Below are positions 2,256 to 9,225 of a stretch of 64,000 nt of DNA, one piece after another. Numbering within the stretch: the stretch's first letter is position 1; every line of letters begins with the position of its first letter. A program made the translations under genes and the position numbers. The stretch comes from Amphiplicatus metriothermophilus (GTDB lineage Bacteria > Pseudomonadota > Alphaproteobacteria > Caulobacterales > Parvularculaceae), in NCBI RefSeq assembly GCF_900199215.1, contig NZ_FZQA01000002.1:199501-263500 (forward strand), read 5' to 3'. Under the pieces are notes generated by a model. That model was given only the letters and a program-made list of their open reading frames with translations. It was not told the origin of the DNA and ran no database searches.

Positions 2256-2303
2256 GGAGCGAAGTATGCGCGGGGCGGGGAAGCGGTCAATGGGAACGGG
2301 CAG

Positions 2304-2323
2304 ATGTTTCCTGCCTGAAACAT
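2304..2323. repeat. 7-bp inverted repeat upstream of DUF3800 gene
   Basis: ATGTTTC and GAAACAT form a perfect 7-bp inverted repeat around a 6-base spacer. It lies in the AT-richer 200-base gap between the carbonic anhydrase start and the DUF3800 start. It could be an operator or a small RNA hairpin; nothing further supports either role. Confidence 0.4.
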
Positions 2324-2457
2324 GTGGCGTTATTCGATCACGCTGTTCATGGTTTTGCATGTCTTTGGACGGCTGCTTCCATAGTGAAACTGGCCCTGTT
2401 TTGGGAAAAAGGTTATGCTTTTCAGAAATGACGACTGAGAATAAGCGGCCCTGAGAA

Positions 2458-3195
2458 GTGATCAACAGCGATTACGTCATCTACGTAGATGAGAGCGGCG
2501 ATGCGAACATCGACAAAATCGACCCGCAATATCCGATTTTCGTTCTGACATTCTGCATCTTCCAGAAGGAGCCATACGCCTCTACCGTTTCGCCTTCGAT
2601 TCAGCGATTGAAATTCAAGCACTTCAACCATGACAACGTGGTTCTGCACGAATACGACATCCGAAAGCCCCGAGGGCAGTTTGCGTTTTTGCGGGACGCC
2701 GTAAAGCGCGCTGAATTTCTGGCTGATCTTGCAAGGGTCATTTCGGATGCGCCGATGACCATCATCGCCGCCGTCATCAAGAAGGATGAACTGAAACAGC
2801 GATATGTCGATCCGGATCATCCCTATGAGACGGCCCTGAAATTTTGCCTTGAACGAACCTACCATTTTATGCGCGAGCGGGCGCAAGCCGATCGTCAGAC
2901 CGTCATTCTCGCCGAGGGGAGGGGAAAGGCGGAAAACGACGCATTGGAGCTTGCCTTCCGACGGATTGTCGATGGCGAGAATTTTGCTAGCGTACGAATG
3001 AATTGCTTTAAGCTGATGTTCGCCCCAAAAGGCGTGAATCTTGGCGGTATGCAGCTTGCCGATCTGACTGCAAGGCCGATCGGCCTTAGCGTTTTACGAC
3101 CCGATCAACGCAATCGTGCTTTCGAGATCATCGAGCCCAAGATTCGACGGGGACCGACGGGGCTCTCCGGGTTTGGACTGAAGGTTTTCCCATAA
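2458..3195 (+). CDS. DUF3800 domain-containing protein
   Basis: A 245-residue protein starting at GTG. It carries the DUF3800 hallmarks: an N-terminal acidic strand motif YVDESGD (about residues 9-15), a central VVLHEYDIRK segment, ILAEGRGKAEND in the second half, and the C-terminal GGMQLADLTA motif. These conserved acidic positions resemble an RNase H-like active site, but the biochemical function of the family is not established. Base composition and codon use are visibly more AT-rich than in the flanking genes, and the family is patchily distributed, so horizontal acquisition is likely. No strong Shine-Dalgarno is seen at the GTG (only GAGAAG nearby), so the start is moderately certain. 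A predicted small RNA gene lies convergently at its 3' end. Confidence 0.85.
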   Translation: MINSDYVIYVDESGDANIDKIDPQYPIFVLTFCIFQKEPYASTVSPSIQRLKFKHFNHDNVVLHEYDIRKPRGQFAFLRDAVKRAEFLADLARVISDAPMTIIAAVIKKDELKQRYVDPDHPYETALKFCLERTYHFMRERAQADRQTVILAEGRGKAENDALELAFRRIVDGENFASVRMNCFKLMFAPKGVNLGGMQLADLTARPIGLSVLRPDQRNRAFEIIEPKIRRGPTGLSGFGLKVFP

Positions 3196-3256
3196 AACAA
3201 AAGGCCCCGACAAAGCCGGAGCCTCTTGCCGACCGGATATGTCCAGTCCCTAGCTG
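3195..3256 (-). ncRNA. Predicted small structured RNA convergent with the DUF3800 gene
   Basis: On the minus strand the gap between the DUF3800 and maiA stop codons reads as a self-contained transcription unit. A promoter (3263-3291) is followed by about 60 bases and an intrinsic terminator. The RNA would fold into two stem-loops. The first pairs 3242-3248 with 3231-3237 (7 bp including one G-U, four-base loop). The second is the terminator hairpin 3203-3223 followed by a T-rich run. The terminator only pairs perfectly when read from the minus strand, where one pair is G-U; on the plus strand it is C-A. Structured RNA motifs associated with DUF3800 genes have been described by comparative genomics; whether this one matches any of them is not known. 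It could instead be part of the maiA 3' UTR. Confidence 0.55.
3203..3223 (-). terminator. Rho-independent terminator
   Basis: Read on the minus strand, GGCTCCG pairs with CGGGGCC around a 7-base loop. It is flanked by A-U pairs and followed by TTTTGTTTT (3194-3202). It would end both the predicted small RNA and any readthrough from maiA. Confidence 0.7.
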
Positions 3257-3262
3257 GCATGG

Positions 3263-3291
3263 AAAATAGGGCGAAATGTCCCTATTGTCAA
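3263..3291 (-). promoter_or_regulatory. Sigma-70-type promoter for the small RNA
   Basis: On the minus strand a perfect TTGACA (3286-3291) is separated by exactly 17 bases from TATTTT (3263-3268, four of six consensus bases). The expected start point is near 3255-3256. The spacer region also contains the inverted repeat AATAGGG/CCCTATT (3265-3271 and 3280-3286), which overlaps the -10 box and could be an operator. Confidence 0.55.
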
Positions 3292-3339
3292 GGATTCTGG
3301 TCGTTTTGAACGCTCGCGGCCTGTCGCCTTTCGCATGTC

Positions 3340-3981
3340 TTATCCCCTCGCCGCGTCCGGCTGATTGTCCGGGTGCGCCTTGACGAAGGCGGGATGCGCG
3401 GTGCAGCGCTCATAAATTGCATTGAGCCGCGGCGCGCCGGCGAGATCAACGCCGAAGCGCAGCGCGGCGTAGATCTGCGGAACGAGGCAGATGTCGGCGA
3501 GGGTGGGCTGATCGCCGACGCAATAATCGCCGGCGGTCTCGGCGACCATGGTCTCGACGGCCTCGATCGCGCCTTTCACGAAGCGGTCGAGCCAGGCTTT
3601 GACCCCCGCTTCGTCGAGGCCGGCCTCCTCGCGCAGGTATTTCTGTACGCGCAGGTTCTGAAGGGGCTGGGCCTCGCAGGCGATGGCGTAGGCGATCTGG
3701 CGCGCCCTGGCCCGCATGAGCGGATCGGCCGGCAGCAGCGGCGGGGCGGGATATGTCTCATCCAGATAGTCGATGACGGCGAGCGACTGGACGAGCGTCG
3801 CGCCGTCGTCCGTCATGAGCGCGGGCAGAAGGCCCTGCGGGCTGACCTTGAGATAATCGGGCGATTTCTGCTCGCCCTTGAGCAGGTTCACCGGCGCATA
3901 GTCATAGTCGAGTCCCTTGAGGGCGAGGGCGATGCGCACGCGATAGGTCGCGCCCGAGCGCCAGTAGCCGTAGAGCTTCAT
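3340..3981 (-). CDS. maiA: Maleylacetoacetate isomerase
   Basis: A zeta-class glutathione transferase of 213 aa that isomerises maleylacetoacetate to fumarylacetoacetate in tyrosine/homogentisate breakdown. The N-terminal thioredoxin-like domain shows MKLYGYWRSGATYRVRIALALKG, where the glutathione-activating loop is SGATYRVRI instead of the more usual SSCSxRVRI or SSAAYRVRI. VSPQGLLPAL and QSLAVIDYLDE complete the glutathione site. The helical C-terminal domain contains NLRVQKYL and the capping motif TLADICLVPQIYAA. It is divergent from hppD, with a shared palindromic operator in between, consistent with one tyrosine-catabolic regulon. Confidence 0.93.
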   Translation of the reverse strand: MKLYGYWRSGATYRVRIALALKGLDYDYAPVNLLKGEQKSPDYLKVSPQGLLPALMTDDGATLVQSLAVIDYLDETYPAPPLLPADPLMRARARQIAYAIACEAQPLQNLRVQKYLREEAGLDEAGVKAWLDRFVKGAIEAVETMVAETAGDYCVGDQPTLADICLVPQIYAALRFGVDLAGAPRLNAIYERCTAHPAFVKAHPDNQPDAARG

Positions 3982-4085
3982 GCCTTATCTCCTTCCACGC
4001 CGGCGATTTTTTGCGTCCAACCTAGAGAACCCGGCGGCCGGGGAAACCGCGTCGCGCCGCGCTCGCCGGGAATTGATTCAAGATA

Positions 4086-4099
4086 GTAACATATGTTAC
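4086..4099. promoter_or_regulatory. 14-bp perfect palindrome, candidate operator of the maiA/hppD divergent promoters
   Basis: GTAACATATGTTAC is a perfect palindrome between the divergent maiA (105 bases away) and hppD (67 bases away) starts. Size and symmetry suit a dimeric winged-helix repressor. The MarR-family regulator encoded just after hppD (5319-5819) is the obvious candidate ligand-responsive binder, by inference. Confidence 0.55.
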
Positions 4100-4165
4100 C
4101 AATCATCGCGAATGGCGGGCCGCGACGGCCCCGGCCGCCCTGGCAACAGGCGAAGGAGGCTTCCC

Positions 4166-5233
4166 ATGGCCGATCTTTTCGAAAACCCCATCGGCACCGA
4201 CGGCTTCGAGTTCGTCGAGTTCACGGGGCCGGAGCCGGACAAGCTCGCGAGACTTTTCGAGACGCTCGGTTTCACGGCGGTCGGCCGGCATCGGTCGAAG
4301 GACGTCGTTCATTACCGGCAGGGCGACATCAACTTCATTCTCAATCGCGAGCCGAGCGGCCAGCCGGGCGCCTTCCGCAACCGGCACGGCGCCGGCGCCA
4401 ACGCGATGGCCTTCCGCGTGAAGGACGCCGCCCATGCGTTCGAGGAAGCCGTGCGCCGGGGCGCCCGGCCGGTCGAGGCGAAAGCCGGTCCGATGGAGCT
4501 CAACATCCCCGCCATCGAAGGCATCGGCGGACTCTATGTCTATCTCGTCGACCGCTACGGCGCGAAGACCATCTACGACGTCGATTTCGAGCCCATCGAA
4601 GACGCGGAGCCGGCGAAGAACAGCGCGGGCCTTACCTATATCGATCATCTCACCCACAACCTCCATCGCGGCAACATGGCCAGGTGGGCGAAGTACTACG
4701 AGGACATCTTCAACTTCCGCGAGATCCGGTATTTCGACATCGAGGGCAAACTCACCGGCCTCGTCTCCAAGGCGATGACGAGCCCGTGCGGCAAGATCCG
4801 CATCCCGCTCAACGAAAGCCAGGACGACAAGTCCCAGATCGAGGAATTCCTCCAGCGCTATAACGGCGAAGGCATCCAGCATATCGCGCTGGGTACGGAC
4901 GATATCTATGAGACGGTGGAAGAGCTGCGCCGGCGCGGGGTGCCGTTCCAGTCGACGCCTGACACATATTACGAAAAGGTCGGCGAGCGCGTGCCGGACC
5001 ACGGCGAGGACCTGGCCCGGCTTAAAAAGAACCGCATCCTGATCGACGGGGCGCCGACAGAAGGGCAGGGGCTTCTTCTCCAGATCTTCACCCAGGACGC
5101 CATCGGCCCGATCTTCTTCGAGATCATCCAGCGCAAAGGCAATGAAGGCTTCGGCGAAGGCAACTTCAAGGCGCTGTTCGAATCGATCGAGGAAGATCAG
5201 ATCCGCCGCGGCGTCTTGAAGGAAAGCGCGTAA
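4166..5233 (+). CDS. hppD: 4-hydroxyphenylpyruvate dioxygenase
   Basis: An Fe(II) dioxygenase converting 4-hydroxyphenylpyruvate to homogentisate, the second step of tyrosine breakdown. The 355-aa length is normal for bacterial enzymes. Two vicinal-oxygen-chelate domains are visible. The C-terminal one carries the iron ligands: His in YIDHLTHNLHRG, His in GIQHIALGTDDI, and Glu in FFEIIQRKGNEGFGEGNF, followed by the usual C-terminal FKALFESIEEDQIRRGVL. The ATG at 4166 is preceded by a strong AAGGAGG (4153-4159), which fixes the start although the frame is open further upstream. Homogentisate dioxygenase and fumarylacetoacetase are not in the window. Confidence 0.96.
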   Translation: MADLFENPIGTDGFEFVEFTGPEPDKLARLFETLGFTAVGRHRSKDVVHYRQGDINFILNREPSGQPGAFRNRHGAGANAMAFRVKDAAHAFEEAVRRGARPVEAKAGPMELNIPAIEGIGGLYVYLVDRYGAKTIYDVDFEPIEDAEPAKNSAGLTYIDHLTHNLHRGNMARWAKYYEDIFNFREIRYFDIEGKLTGLVSKAMTSPCGKIRIPLNESQDDKSQIEEFLQRYNGEGIQHIALGTDDIYETVEELRRRGVPFQSTPDTYYEKVGERVPDHGEDLARLKKNRILIDGAPTEGQGLLLQIFTQDAIGPIFFEIIQRKGNEGFGEGNFKALFESIEEDQIRRGVLKESA

Positions 5234-7471: not shown

Positions 7472-8212
7472 ATGTATGCGTTGGATTCAGACAAGGCGGT
7501 GGTCCTTTTCTCCGGCGGCCAGGATTCGGCGATCGCGCTCGCCTGGGCGCTGCAGCGGTTTGACTGGGTGGAAACCATCGGTTTCGACTACGGCCAGCGT
7601 CATGCGGTGGAGCTGGGCGCGCGCACCGCGCTGCGGCGCGAGCTGACGCGCGACTTTTCCGCTTTCGCCGCGCGGCTGGGGCCTGACACGCTGGTCGATC
7701 TGGGCGGCCTTGGACGGCTCAGCGAGACGGCGCTCACGCGCGACGCCGAAATCGCCGTCGCTGAGAACGGCCTGCCGACCACCTTCGTGCCGGGGCGCAA
7801 TCTCGCCTTCCTGGTGTTCGCCGCGGCGCTCGCCTATCGGCGCGGCGCGGGCGCGCTGGTCGCCGGCATGTGCCAGGTCGATTATTCAGGCTATCCCGAC
7901 TGCCGGGAAGAAGCCTTGCGCGCGCAGATTGAGGCGATCCGCCTCGGCATGGACGCCGCTTTCCGTCTCGAAACGCCGGTCATGCATCTGAGCAAGGCCG
8001 AAAGCTGGCGCCTGGCTGAAAAGATCGGGGGGCGCAGACTCGTCGATCTCATCAACGAGCATTCGCACAGCTGCTATCGGGGCGTTCGCGCGACGCGCCA
8101 CGAGTGGGGCTATGGCTGCGGGGATTGTCCGGCCTGCGACTTGCGCGCCAAAGGGTGGGCGGCTTACGTCGCCGACGAGGGCGGCGAGACGGCGACCGGG
8201 AAGGCGAAGTGA
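7472..8212 (+). CDS. queC: 7-cyano-7-deazaguanine synthase
   Basis: An ATP-dependent enzyme making preQ0 from 7-carboxy-7-deazaguanine in queuosine biosynthesis. 246 aa. The N-terminal PP-loop is [15 protein letters not shown]. The zinc-binding cysteines are in the C-terminal [16 protein letters not shown] together with an upstream SCYRG. The downstream queE start overlaps its stop by four bases (GTGA), and queD follows, so the three genes form an operon supplying preQ0 for tRNA wobble-base modification. Confidence 0.96.
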
Positions 8213-8847
8213 CGACCTATTCCGTCAAGGAACGCTATTACACCTTGCAGGGCGAAGGGGCGCAGGCGGGCCGCGCGGCGGTGTTTCTGCGCTTCGCCGG
8301 CTGCAATCTGTGGACGGGCCTCGAAAAGGATCGCGACAGCGCCGACTGCCGGTTTTGCGACACCGATTTCGTCGGAACCGACGGACCGGGCGGGGGCAGG
8401 TTCCGCTCTGCGGACGCGCTCGCGGACCATGTCGCGGCGGCCTGGCCGGCGGGCGCAGGCGGGCGCCCGCTCGTGGTGTGCACCGGCGGGGAGCCGCTTC
8501 TGCAGCTCGACGCGCCGCTTATTGACGCGCTGCATGCGCGCGGCTTCGAGGTGGCGGTCGAGACGAACGGCACGATAGCTGCGCCCGCCGGGCTCGACTG
8601 GATCTGCGTCAGCCCCAAGGCCGGCGCGCCGCTCGTTCAGACCGAAGGCGACGAGCTCAAACTCGTCTTTCCGCAGGACGGGGCCCCGCCTGCGGCGTTC
8701 GAGCGCCTGCGCTTCAAGCGTTTTTTCCTGCAGCCTATGGACGGGCCGGAGGTTTCGCGGCATACAGCCGCCGCCGTCGAATACTGCAAAGCCCATCCGC
8801 AGTGGCGTCTGAGCCTTCAGACCCACAAGCTGATCGGCATTCCTTGA
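8209..8847 (+). CDS. queE: 7-carboxy-7-deazaguanine synthase (radical SAM)
   Basis: A radical-SAM enzyme that contracts 6-carboxy-tetrahydropterin to 7-carboxy-7-deazaguanine. 212 aa from a GTG at 8209 that overlaps the queC stop. The protein begins [20 protein letters not shown], matching the family. The iron-sulfur motif has the QueE-specific long spacing: C in GCNLW, then CRFC in the [17 protein letters not shown] block. [12 protein letters not shown] binds SAM. The frame is open upstream inside queC, but that extension is not homologous to the family. Confidence 0.95.
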
Positions 8848-8868
8848 AACGCCGAAGGACGCGCCGCC

Positions 8869-9225
8869 ATGCGCATCGTCAAGTCGATAACCTTCGACGC
8901 CGCGCACTATCTGGCCGATTGTCCGGATGCGCGGCCCTATGCGCGCATGCACGGCCATTCCTTCACGCTCGAGGTGGCGATCGACGGGGAGCCTGACCCC
9001 GAGACCGGCTGGGTCGTCGATCTCGGCGATGTCGCCGAGGCGCTCGCCGAGCTGCGGGACAGCCTCGATCATCGGCTTCTGAACGAGGTCGAGGGGCTCG
9101 GCCGGCCGACGCTCGAGAACATCTGCCGTTACGCGGCCGAGCGTCTGCGCGCGCGGTTCCCGGGCCTTGCGCGCGTGCGCGTCGCGCGTCCCTCCTGCGG
9201 GGAGGCCTGCGAGTACGAACTGTGA
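8869..9225 (+). CDS. queD: 6-carboxytetrahydropterin synthase
   Basis: A 118-aa enzyme turning dihydroneopterin triphosphate into 6-carboxy-tetrahydropterin, the first queuosine-specific step. Zinc ligands are visible: His in DAAHYL and the pair in MHGHSF. GWVVDLGDV and LDHRLLN are typical, and the C-terminal ARPSCGEACEYEL supplies the pterin-binding Glu. Oddly, the catalytic Cys of the usual CX3HXH motif is a Tyr here (YARMHGH), while a Cys occurs six residues earlier (LADCPD). Third gene of the queC-queE-queD operon. Confidence 0.93.
   Translation: MRIVKSITFDAAHYLADCPDARPYARMHGHSFTLEVAIDGEPDPETGWVVDLGDVAEALAELRDSLDHRLLNEVEGLGRPTLENICRYAAERLRARFPGLARVRVARPSCGEACEYEL

Follow-up and report, generated by a model that had tools for sequence, protein, structure and literature searches.

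A DUF3800 gene of Amphiplicatus metriothermophilus converges on a small, apparently structured RNA gene that lies opposite its 3' end, an arrangement which raises the question of whether protein and RNA belong together and, if so, what the RNA might do to the protein. An initial annotation of the locus had proposed that the two form a mobile unit of two components, possibly an RNA-binding nuclease with its cognate RNA, in a toxin-antitoxin-like or defence-like role. Passages on DUF3800 in four papers report no tested function for the protein or for its RNAs. Here we examine the proposal in the 64,000-nucleotide stretch of DNA that was analysed (the window) and in relatives of the locus.

Layout of the locus and its predicted products

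The DUF3800 gene (2458-3195, plus strand) codes for a protein of 245 amino acids, which scores 50.4 bits against PF12686 (curated cut-off 21 bits; E 5.2e-13) over residues 8-209. The gene is AT-richer than its surroundings, as first annotated, with a GC content of 52.6% vs 67.0% for the window. The protein is predicted with high confidence to have an RNase H fold, nearest to that of RNase HII: a Foldseek comparison of the predicted model with solved structures gave one match at E <=0.001, which was RNase HII, and PIWI domains were among the next-best folds. RNase HII shares ~12% identity with DUF3800 over the aligned part, DUF3800 having S-G-D in place of the G-R-G of RNase HII, and the linked RNA is a feature of DUF3800. 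Four acidic residues (D11, E12, E153 and D202) are invariant in all 35 alignment rows; L145, with an internal stop in its translation, was left out of alignment A5. From the predicted fold and these conserved residues we infer a nuclease activity, in keeping with the nuclease-like protein proposed at the outset. A sequence search of the PDB with A3 returned designed proteins only, at E 0.17 or worse; PHROGs gave no match for four proteins, the window protein included, and PADLOC 2.0.0, at E 0.001, matched neither the window protein nor that of L005, a Bacteroidetes locus.

On the minus strand, the elements read from the bare sequence in the initial annotation are all present. A predicted sigma-70-type promoter (3263-3291), identified by a consensus scan and, by eye, kept in two relatives, consists of a -35 element TTGACA (3291-3286), a 17-base spacer and a -10 element TATTTT (3268-3263). 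It is followed by the small RNA gene (3190-3254; predicted transcript from ~3256 to ~3190), which is delimited by a covariance model (R1) and by covariation. Hairpin 1 (3231-3248) has seven pairs and a loop of four, reading GACUGGA-cata-UCCGGUC from 3248 to 3231. Hairpin 2, the terminator stem (3196-3230), abuts hairpin 1 without a spacer; its 16 pairs join 3230-3215 with 3211-3196 and lead into a U-tract that is antisense to the stop codon of the DUF3800 gene (3193-3195). For the minus-strand RNA, 64 nt long, the predicted folding energy is -34.6 kcal/mol (z = -6.5; none of 200 shuffles as stable), vs -17.3 kcal/mol for the plus strand of the same stretch (z = -2.0; 7 of 200 shuffles as stable). 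By themselves the consensus scans are weak, with 2 promoters found vs 0.5 expected and 1 terminator vs 2.2 expected, and would not prove an RNA unit; the unit stands far above chance because it is conserved.

Conservation of the RNA and its linkage to DUF3800 genes

To place the RNA among its relatives, DUF3800 loci were gathered from genomes, IMG/VR contigs, plasmids and phages, 133 of them with a stop codon, giving 93 distinct 3' flanks. A script detected hairpin 1 in 77 of these flanks and failed in 16 (L083, L122, L031, L148, L146, L036, L087, L090, L047, L030, L152, L015, L014, L160, L032 and L162), in three of which (L083, L087 and L122) the RNA was later found by R1; L138 and L048 were positive by script, yet were not reported by R1. 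When 30 distinct flanks were folded, the minus strand was the more stable in all save L005 and L031.

Covariation was assessed on alignment A4, made up of the window and 45 loci, selected out of 62 non-redundant sequences chiefly because their lengths were alike. The sequences were aligned without regard to structure, and the named two-hairpin structure was counted on the result afterwards. Across the 46 sequences and 21 pairs, standard pairs fill 92.1% of 960 cells, vs 82.9% in shuffles and 35-60% in slid controls (98.4% of cells are paired in hairpin 1 and 88.9% in hairpin 2). Changes on both sides occur in 15 of the 21 pairs (9.1 in shuffles), including 4 of 7 pairs in hairpin 1 and 11 of the 14 counted in hairpin 2, and double changes occupy 102 cells (30.2 in shuffles). 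None of 500 shuffles reached any of these measures, a count that is not a p-value because the shuffles do not preserve relatedness; the slid controls do preserve it and still fall far below the structure. The 16 pairs that RNAalifold predicted from A4 all belong to the 21. The initial annotation had suggested aligning the 3' flanks of DUF3800 relatives in search of covarying pairs; the alignment reveals strong covariation, with the hairpins conserved beside homologues.

The same pairs give the strand. G-U is found in 212 cells over the 21 pairs, vs A-C in 10, and A-C is what a G-U of the other strand would look like, which argues that the functional RNA is that of the minus strand. Because the pair at the base of the terminator gives 44 of the 212 cells, the bias holds without it.

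Traces of a promoter are conserved alongside. In L003 and L004 (79% protein identity) the RNA block is kept and the neighbouring gene differs (by eye rlmN-like, not maiA); by eye on alignment A1, both also retain TTGAC and, after 17 bases, a TAT element, though the spacer has changed. The block common to the window, L003 and L004 starts near the predicted transcript start (~3256). Promoter matches of at least 9 of 12 within the 60 bases before hairpin 1 were found in 23 of the 62 non-redundant sequences, vs 6% in a control of shuffled single letters that did not keep dinucleotides, and matches of at least 8 of 12 in 38 (control 20%), the remaining 24 being without such a site. In 27 of these 38, the -10 element ends 9-12 nt before hairpin 1, and transcription of the RNA would begin just before that hairpin. 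L005 carries, by eye, TTTG-21-TATATTTG, which we take to be the Bacteroidetes type of promoter.

The covariance model R1, built from A4, was then run on the window and on 94 DUF3800 loci from which near-duplicates had been left out. In the window it scored 62.2 bits (E 7.7e-17; the window being 1 of the 46 seeds), the next best match there falling below 11 bits. Among the 94 loci it found the RNA in 78 at E 2.5e-5 or better, many of these being seeds of the model or near relatives of seeds. Detection followed the DUF3800 score: the RNA accompanied 64 of 64 genes at 280 bits or more, 6 of 8 at 200-280 bits, 5 of 15 at 100-200 bits and 3 of 7 below 100 bits. All 78 RNAs lie on the strand opposite to the DUF3800 gene, and in 72 of them the RNA ends (3') between 25 bases inside and 10 bases past the end of the stop codon. 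The same place and orientation are found beside the Bacteroidetes homologue, at 32-35% protein identity.

A less biased test was to run R1 alone against 385 genomes of the class. Twelve genomes yielded 14 places with scores of at least 39 bits, and the next score was 29.5 bits. Nine of the 14 lie beside an intact DUF3800 gene, two beside a broken or partial one (L164 and L166) and three (L171, L172 and L173) without an adjacent DUF3800 gene. Close DUF3800 genes accompany the RNA in six (L163, L165, L167, which is the window, L168, L169 and L170); in L193 (G484:C341) tandem copies of the RNA (124-210 and 280-366) abut a single DUF3800 gene; and in L174 the RNA (1501-1566) sits beside a DUF3800 gene (704-1366) of another subfamily (FLDEAGN). 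At E 1e-20, DUF3800 genes of this kind were found in just 14 among 398 genomes from the phylum, a rarity that makes the linkage hard to ascribe to chance. Taken together, these data make it almost certain, at the level of sequence comparison, that a DUF3800 protein and a dedicated two-hairpin RNA form a unit. By eye, a TTGACA-like element precedes each of the tandem RNAs of L193.

The places without an intact partner differ among themselves. The genomes of L171 (G484), L164 (G501) and L166 (G201) have DUF3800 genes elsewhere, and no DUF3800 gene was found anywhere in those of L172 and L173. On plasmids of S. meliloti (L217, L218, L219 and L034), three DUF3800 genes are broken, in ways that differ by strain (5' truncation, frameshifts), and their RNA is letter-identical to that of the intact one; such identity carries little weight inside a single species, and several genomes are available as draft assemblies. 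As for their surroundings, the solitary RNA of L173 (G168:C3, 1501-1568) lies just before a gene (1814-2917) that matches a PADLOC dCTPase profile at E 1.2e-72, and that of L172 (G158:C19, 1457-1521) overlaps the 3' end of a gene for a TPR-repeat protein.

Weak R1 matches are common, occurring in 56 of the 385 genomes at E 0.001, and none of 18 weaker ones that were fetched had a DUF3800 gene beside it (A3 profile). These are probably generic hairpin-terminators, BjrC68 among them. A search of E. coli genomes with an 800-base relative gave no match, nor did a viral scan with the L005 protein.

Insertion site and gene neighbourhood

In the window, the unit stands between two minus-strand genes, a gamma-carbonic-anhydrase-like, hexapeptide-repeat gene (1713-2255; named by eye, Pfam Hexapep) and a maiA-like gene of the glutathione S-transferase family (3340-3981; named by eye), which are separated by 1,084 bp (2256-3339) occupied by DUF3800 and its RNA with short flanking stretches. 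Eight congeners were searched, and in all seven where maiA was found the corresponding distance is 0-73 bp. This comparison shows that the window copy is an insertion separating the maiA-carbonic anhydrase gene pair. The terminator of the RNA now lies between these two genes, on their strand, and a promoter-like TTGACC-16-CATACT (2290-2263) precedes the carbonic-anhydrase-like gene; this site may have replaced expression from the maiA side after the insertion. Beyond maiA, a gene that by eye resembles hydroxyphenylpyruvate dioxygenase adjoins it (3980-5233), and a run of genes further along (7472-9225) resembles, again by eye, queuosine precursor synthesis.

The unit is bracketed by a 13-bp direct repeat, whose left copy (2353-2365, plus strand) is identical at 12 of 13 positions to the right copy (3329-3341, plus strand), which overlaps the maiA stop codon. 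This repeat is one of five direct-repeat families listed, and shuffled flanks reach it in 3 of 300 cases, a weak result in that the flanks were picked after the repeat was seen. The 1.08-kb unit contains no transposase and no terminal inverted repeats were seen in it; flank alignment with the congeners gave no clean insertion junction. Relatives are found on conjugative and other plasmids, in phages and on viral contigs, and protein and RNA occur together on phages, plasmids and chromosomes. The proposal that protein and structured RNA stay together as a mobile unit is thus borne out, both by the 64 of 64 close loci and by the split gene pair.

We also ran Pfam on 21 genes upstream of DUF3800, all from phages and viral contigs apart from that of L174, a genome locus; because these were picked by eye for informative-looking starts, the counts are not frequencies. 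Ten were repressors of the S24 type (L035, L099, L101, L121, L122, L123, L127, L129, L132 and L146), with gaps to DUF3800 of -10 to 162 bases where placed, the repressor of L035 being taken from annotation. Four were type I restriction genes (L016, L112, L125 and L174), that of L174 being a specificity gene. There were also integrases (L098 and L102), a ribonucleotide-reductase small chain (L021) and HTH genes (L133 and, not adjacent, L040), and no family was found for the upstream genes of L018 and L097. L146 belongs to a cousin system, because it carries the Rfam class DUF3800-V. The rexAB genes of phage lambda sit in the repressor transcription unit, and the placement of DUF3800 in a repressor transcription unit likewise suggests expression in the lysogen. 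The defence-like character put forward in the initial annotation is upheld as far as context goes: S24 repressors and type I restriction genes are contexts typical of phage defence, and they were found in part of the relatives examined.

Relation to known systems and possible roles of the RNA

Weinberg and colleagues reportedly described eleven RNA classes, DUF3800-I to XI, in 2017, and the window RNA resembles the classes in Rfam in being a structured RNA beside a DUF3800 gene. The initial annotation had pointed to these families for the segment 3190-3300, where no DUF3800 family matches. At gathering thresholds, the Rfam DUF3800 families gave no match to the RNA in 22 R1-positive loci or in the window, and at E up to 10 they gave none in the window or in 14 loci, of which 13 carry the RNA. 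On these grounds the RNA is a class outside Rfam 15 and, by that comparison of sequences, a new one among DUF3800-associated RNAs. Four of the eleven classes were encountered by name in the Rfam searches (I, V, VI and IX). DUF3800-IX (L162, 683-745) and DUF3800-V (L146, 3413-3558) lie, like the window RNA, on the opposite strand and downstream of DUF3800, whereas DUF3800-VI (L200, 1431-1483) lies upstream on the strand of the gene and is typed as cis-regulatory. The layout of V and IX, together with the lack of a match in Rfam 15, indicates that a convergent arrangement is common to several RNA classes, of which the window RNA is a further one. DUF3800-I was not found in 299 genomes of the phylum, where its control was silent too, so that this search says nothing on absence.

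BjrC68 (RF02353), an sRNA of Bradyrhizobiaceae, has a hairpin followed by a terminator, as does the window RNA, and was considered as a possible identity. The window scores 13.0 bits and its relatives at most 28.8, vs a cut-off of 39; the window match and those of 5 among 14 loci (20.5-28.8 bits) are full-length and coincide precisely with the RNA, though all are sub-threshold. At E 0.001, BjrC68 matches occur in 47 of the 385 genomes, one of them over the cut-off, and a DUF3800 gene lies beside 1 of 30 such matches that were fetched (L075). The genuine BjrC68 (L049, 101.6 bits) stands beside a gene that by eye resembles an ammonium transporter, without DUF3800. Since DUF3800 is missing beside the genuine gene, and since low-scoring matches turn up widely, we rejected membership. 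Matches of sR17, sX6 and other Rfam families near the locus were below their cut-offs and were taken as chance.

Among better known systems, the type III toxin-antitoxin systems (ToxIN and its kin) are similar in combining a nuclease-like protein with a linked structured RNA on phages and plasmids, and the tandem RNAs of L193 are a further likeness. In those systems, however, the RNA repeats lie upstream on the strand of the toxin, whereas the DUF3800 RNA lies downstream and antisense (in 78 of 78 loci and the window) with a promoter-like site of its own. The fold of ToxN presumably differs from the RNase H fold of the DUF3800 protein; no toxin fold such as that of ToxN appears in the VIA-align match list, which is no evidence of absence. 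TnpB and IscB with their omega-RNAs, and IS110 elements with their bridge RNAs, carry a linked noncoding RNA on mobile DNA, and share with the DUF3800 unit the combination of such an RNA with a protein of RNase H-type fold. The DUF3800 unit differs from them in having its RNA on the opposite strand, no transposase and no clear ends, and no guide-like variable segment was found in the 67 modelled RNA positions of A4.

An RNA partner acting on the protein is suggested by three features, namely its promoter, its conserved and compact shape, and its constant presence beside the gene. In the reading we favour, the mobile unit combines a DUF3800 protein of predicted RNase H fold, RNase HII-like, with a convergent two-hairpin RNA of ~60-70 nt that would be transcribed from its own promoter. 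The RNA would bind the protein and keep the nuclease inactive; if its supply dropped, as on takeover of the host by a phage or on loss of the element, the nuclease would be freed and would damage RNA or RNA/DNA hybrids, and the pair would act as an RNA-antitoxin addiction or abortive-infection module. That the RNA is such an antitoxin-like inhibitor is the likeliest reading of the comparisons above, and is put at slightly under even odds because surviving RNAs may reflect recent decay of the gene. A wider proposition is that DUF3800 lineages, each with small structured RNAs of its own that hold an RNase H-fold nuclease in check, make up a hitherto undescribed class of modules with a widespread anti-phage function in which falling RNA levels release the nuclease; this we regard as a possibility to be entertained with greater reserve.

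That the gene always comes with its RNA is equally compatible with an inhibitor and with an activating cofactor. The RNA might serve as cofactor or scaffold by which an RNase H-fold protein finds or cuts its target, possibly against phages, in an activating ribonucleoprotein; such a complex would suit the retention of the RNA by all 64 close genes, the compact shape implied by two helices that abut without a spacer and the PIWI domains among the next folds. Passages of two papers (PMC10910872, PMC12669027) also place DUF3800 at some CRISPR class 2 loci, where they describe it as a nuclease of RNase H fold. However, the variation in A4 lies in stem 2 and the loops, not in an unpaired guide stretch, and RNAs that persist without an adjacent DUF3800 gene are not predicted by a cofactor role. 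An inhibitor is favoured over a cofactor because the RNA outlives the gene and occurs alone, and because none of the 64 close genes is without it; we consider the cofactor reading somewhat unlikely.

The remaining readings do without an action of the RNA on the protein. A purely cis-acting control of DUF3800, whether through convergent transcription or through an antisense RNA that pairs with the mRNA 3' end, would draw on the position of the 3' end of the RNA at or near the stop codon in 72 of 78 loci, and the terminator scan found no plus-strand terminator between 2000 and 4000 of the window. Antisense pairing, however, requires neither conserved hairpins nor double compensatory changes nor a strand-specific G-U bias, and the solitary RNAs of L172 and L173 have no neighbouring DUF3800 mRNA to pair with, which leaves such control distinctly unlikely. 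The free-standing copies, like the sRNA-like size and the terminator, would suit an sRNA that acts in trans, or as a decoy, on targets in host or phage and whose linkage to the nuclease gene is happenstance; happenstance accords poorly, however, with a tight linkage whose position and orientation stay constant even where protein identity falls to 32-35%, and we find this account very doubtful. An element acting as DNA, whether a bidirectional terminator or a conserved sequence (a recombination site where the unit ends, for instance), would explain why the RNA element lies near the edge of an insertion; the G-U bias, the minus-strand U-tract and the promoter-like sites at a kept distance (23 of 62 at 9 or more of 12; controls 6%) tell against it and make it extremely improbable.

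If the DUF3800 protein were indeed a nuclease controlled by its RNA, its solitary copies would act as antidotes to elements of this kind, and phages would keep DUF3800 behind a repressor, as noted above for lambda rexAB, with other carriers keeping it beside restriction genes. The role of these RNAs is directly testable, because the analysis supplies a covariance model of the RNA with its strand, promoter and ends, a confidently predicted nuclease-like fold, an empty-site comparison and named carriers. Cultivated carriers that are positive with R1 include Methylorubrum extorquens DM4, on plasmid p2METDI (L046), and Bradyrhizobium elkanii USDA 94 (L039).
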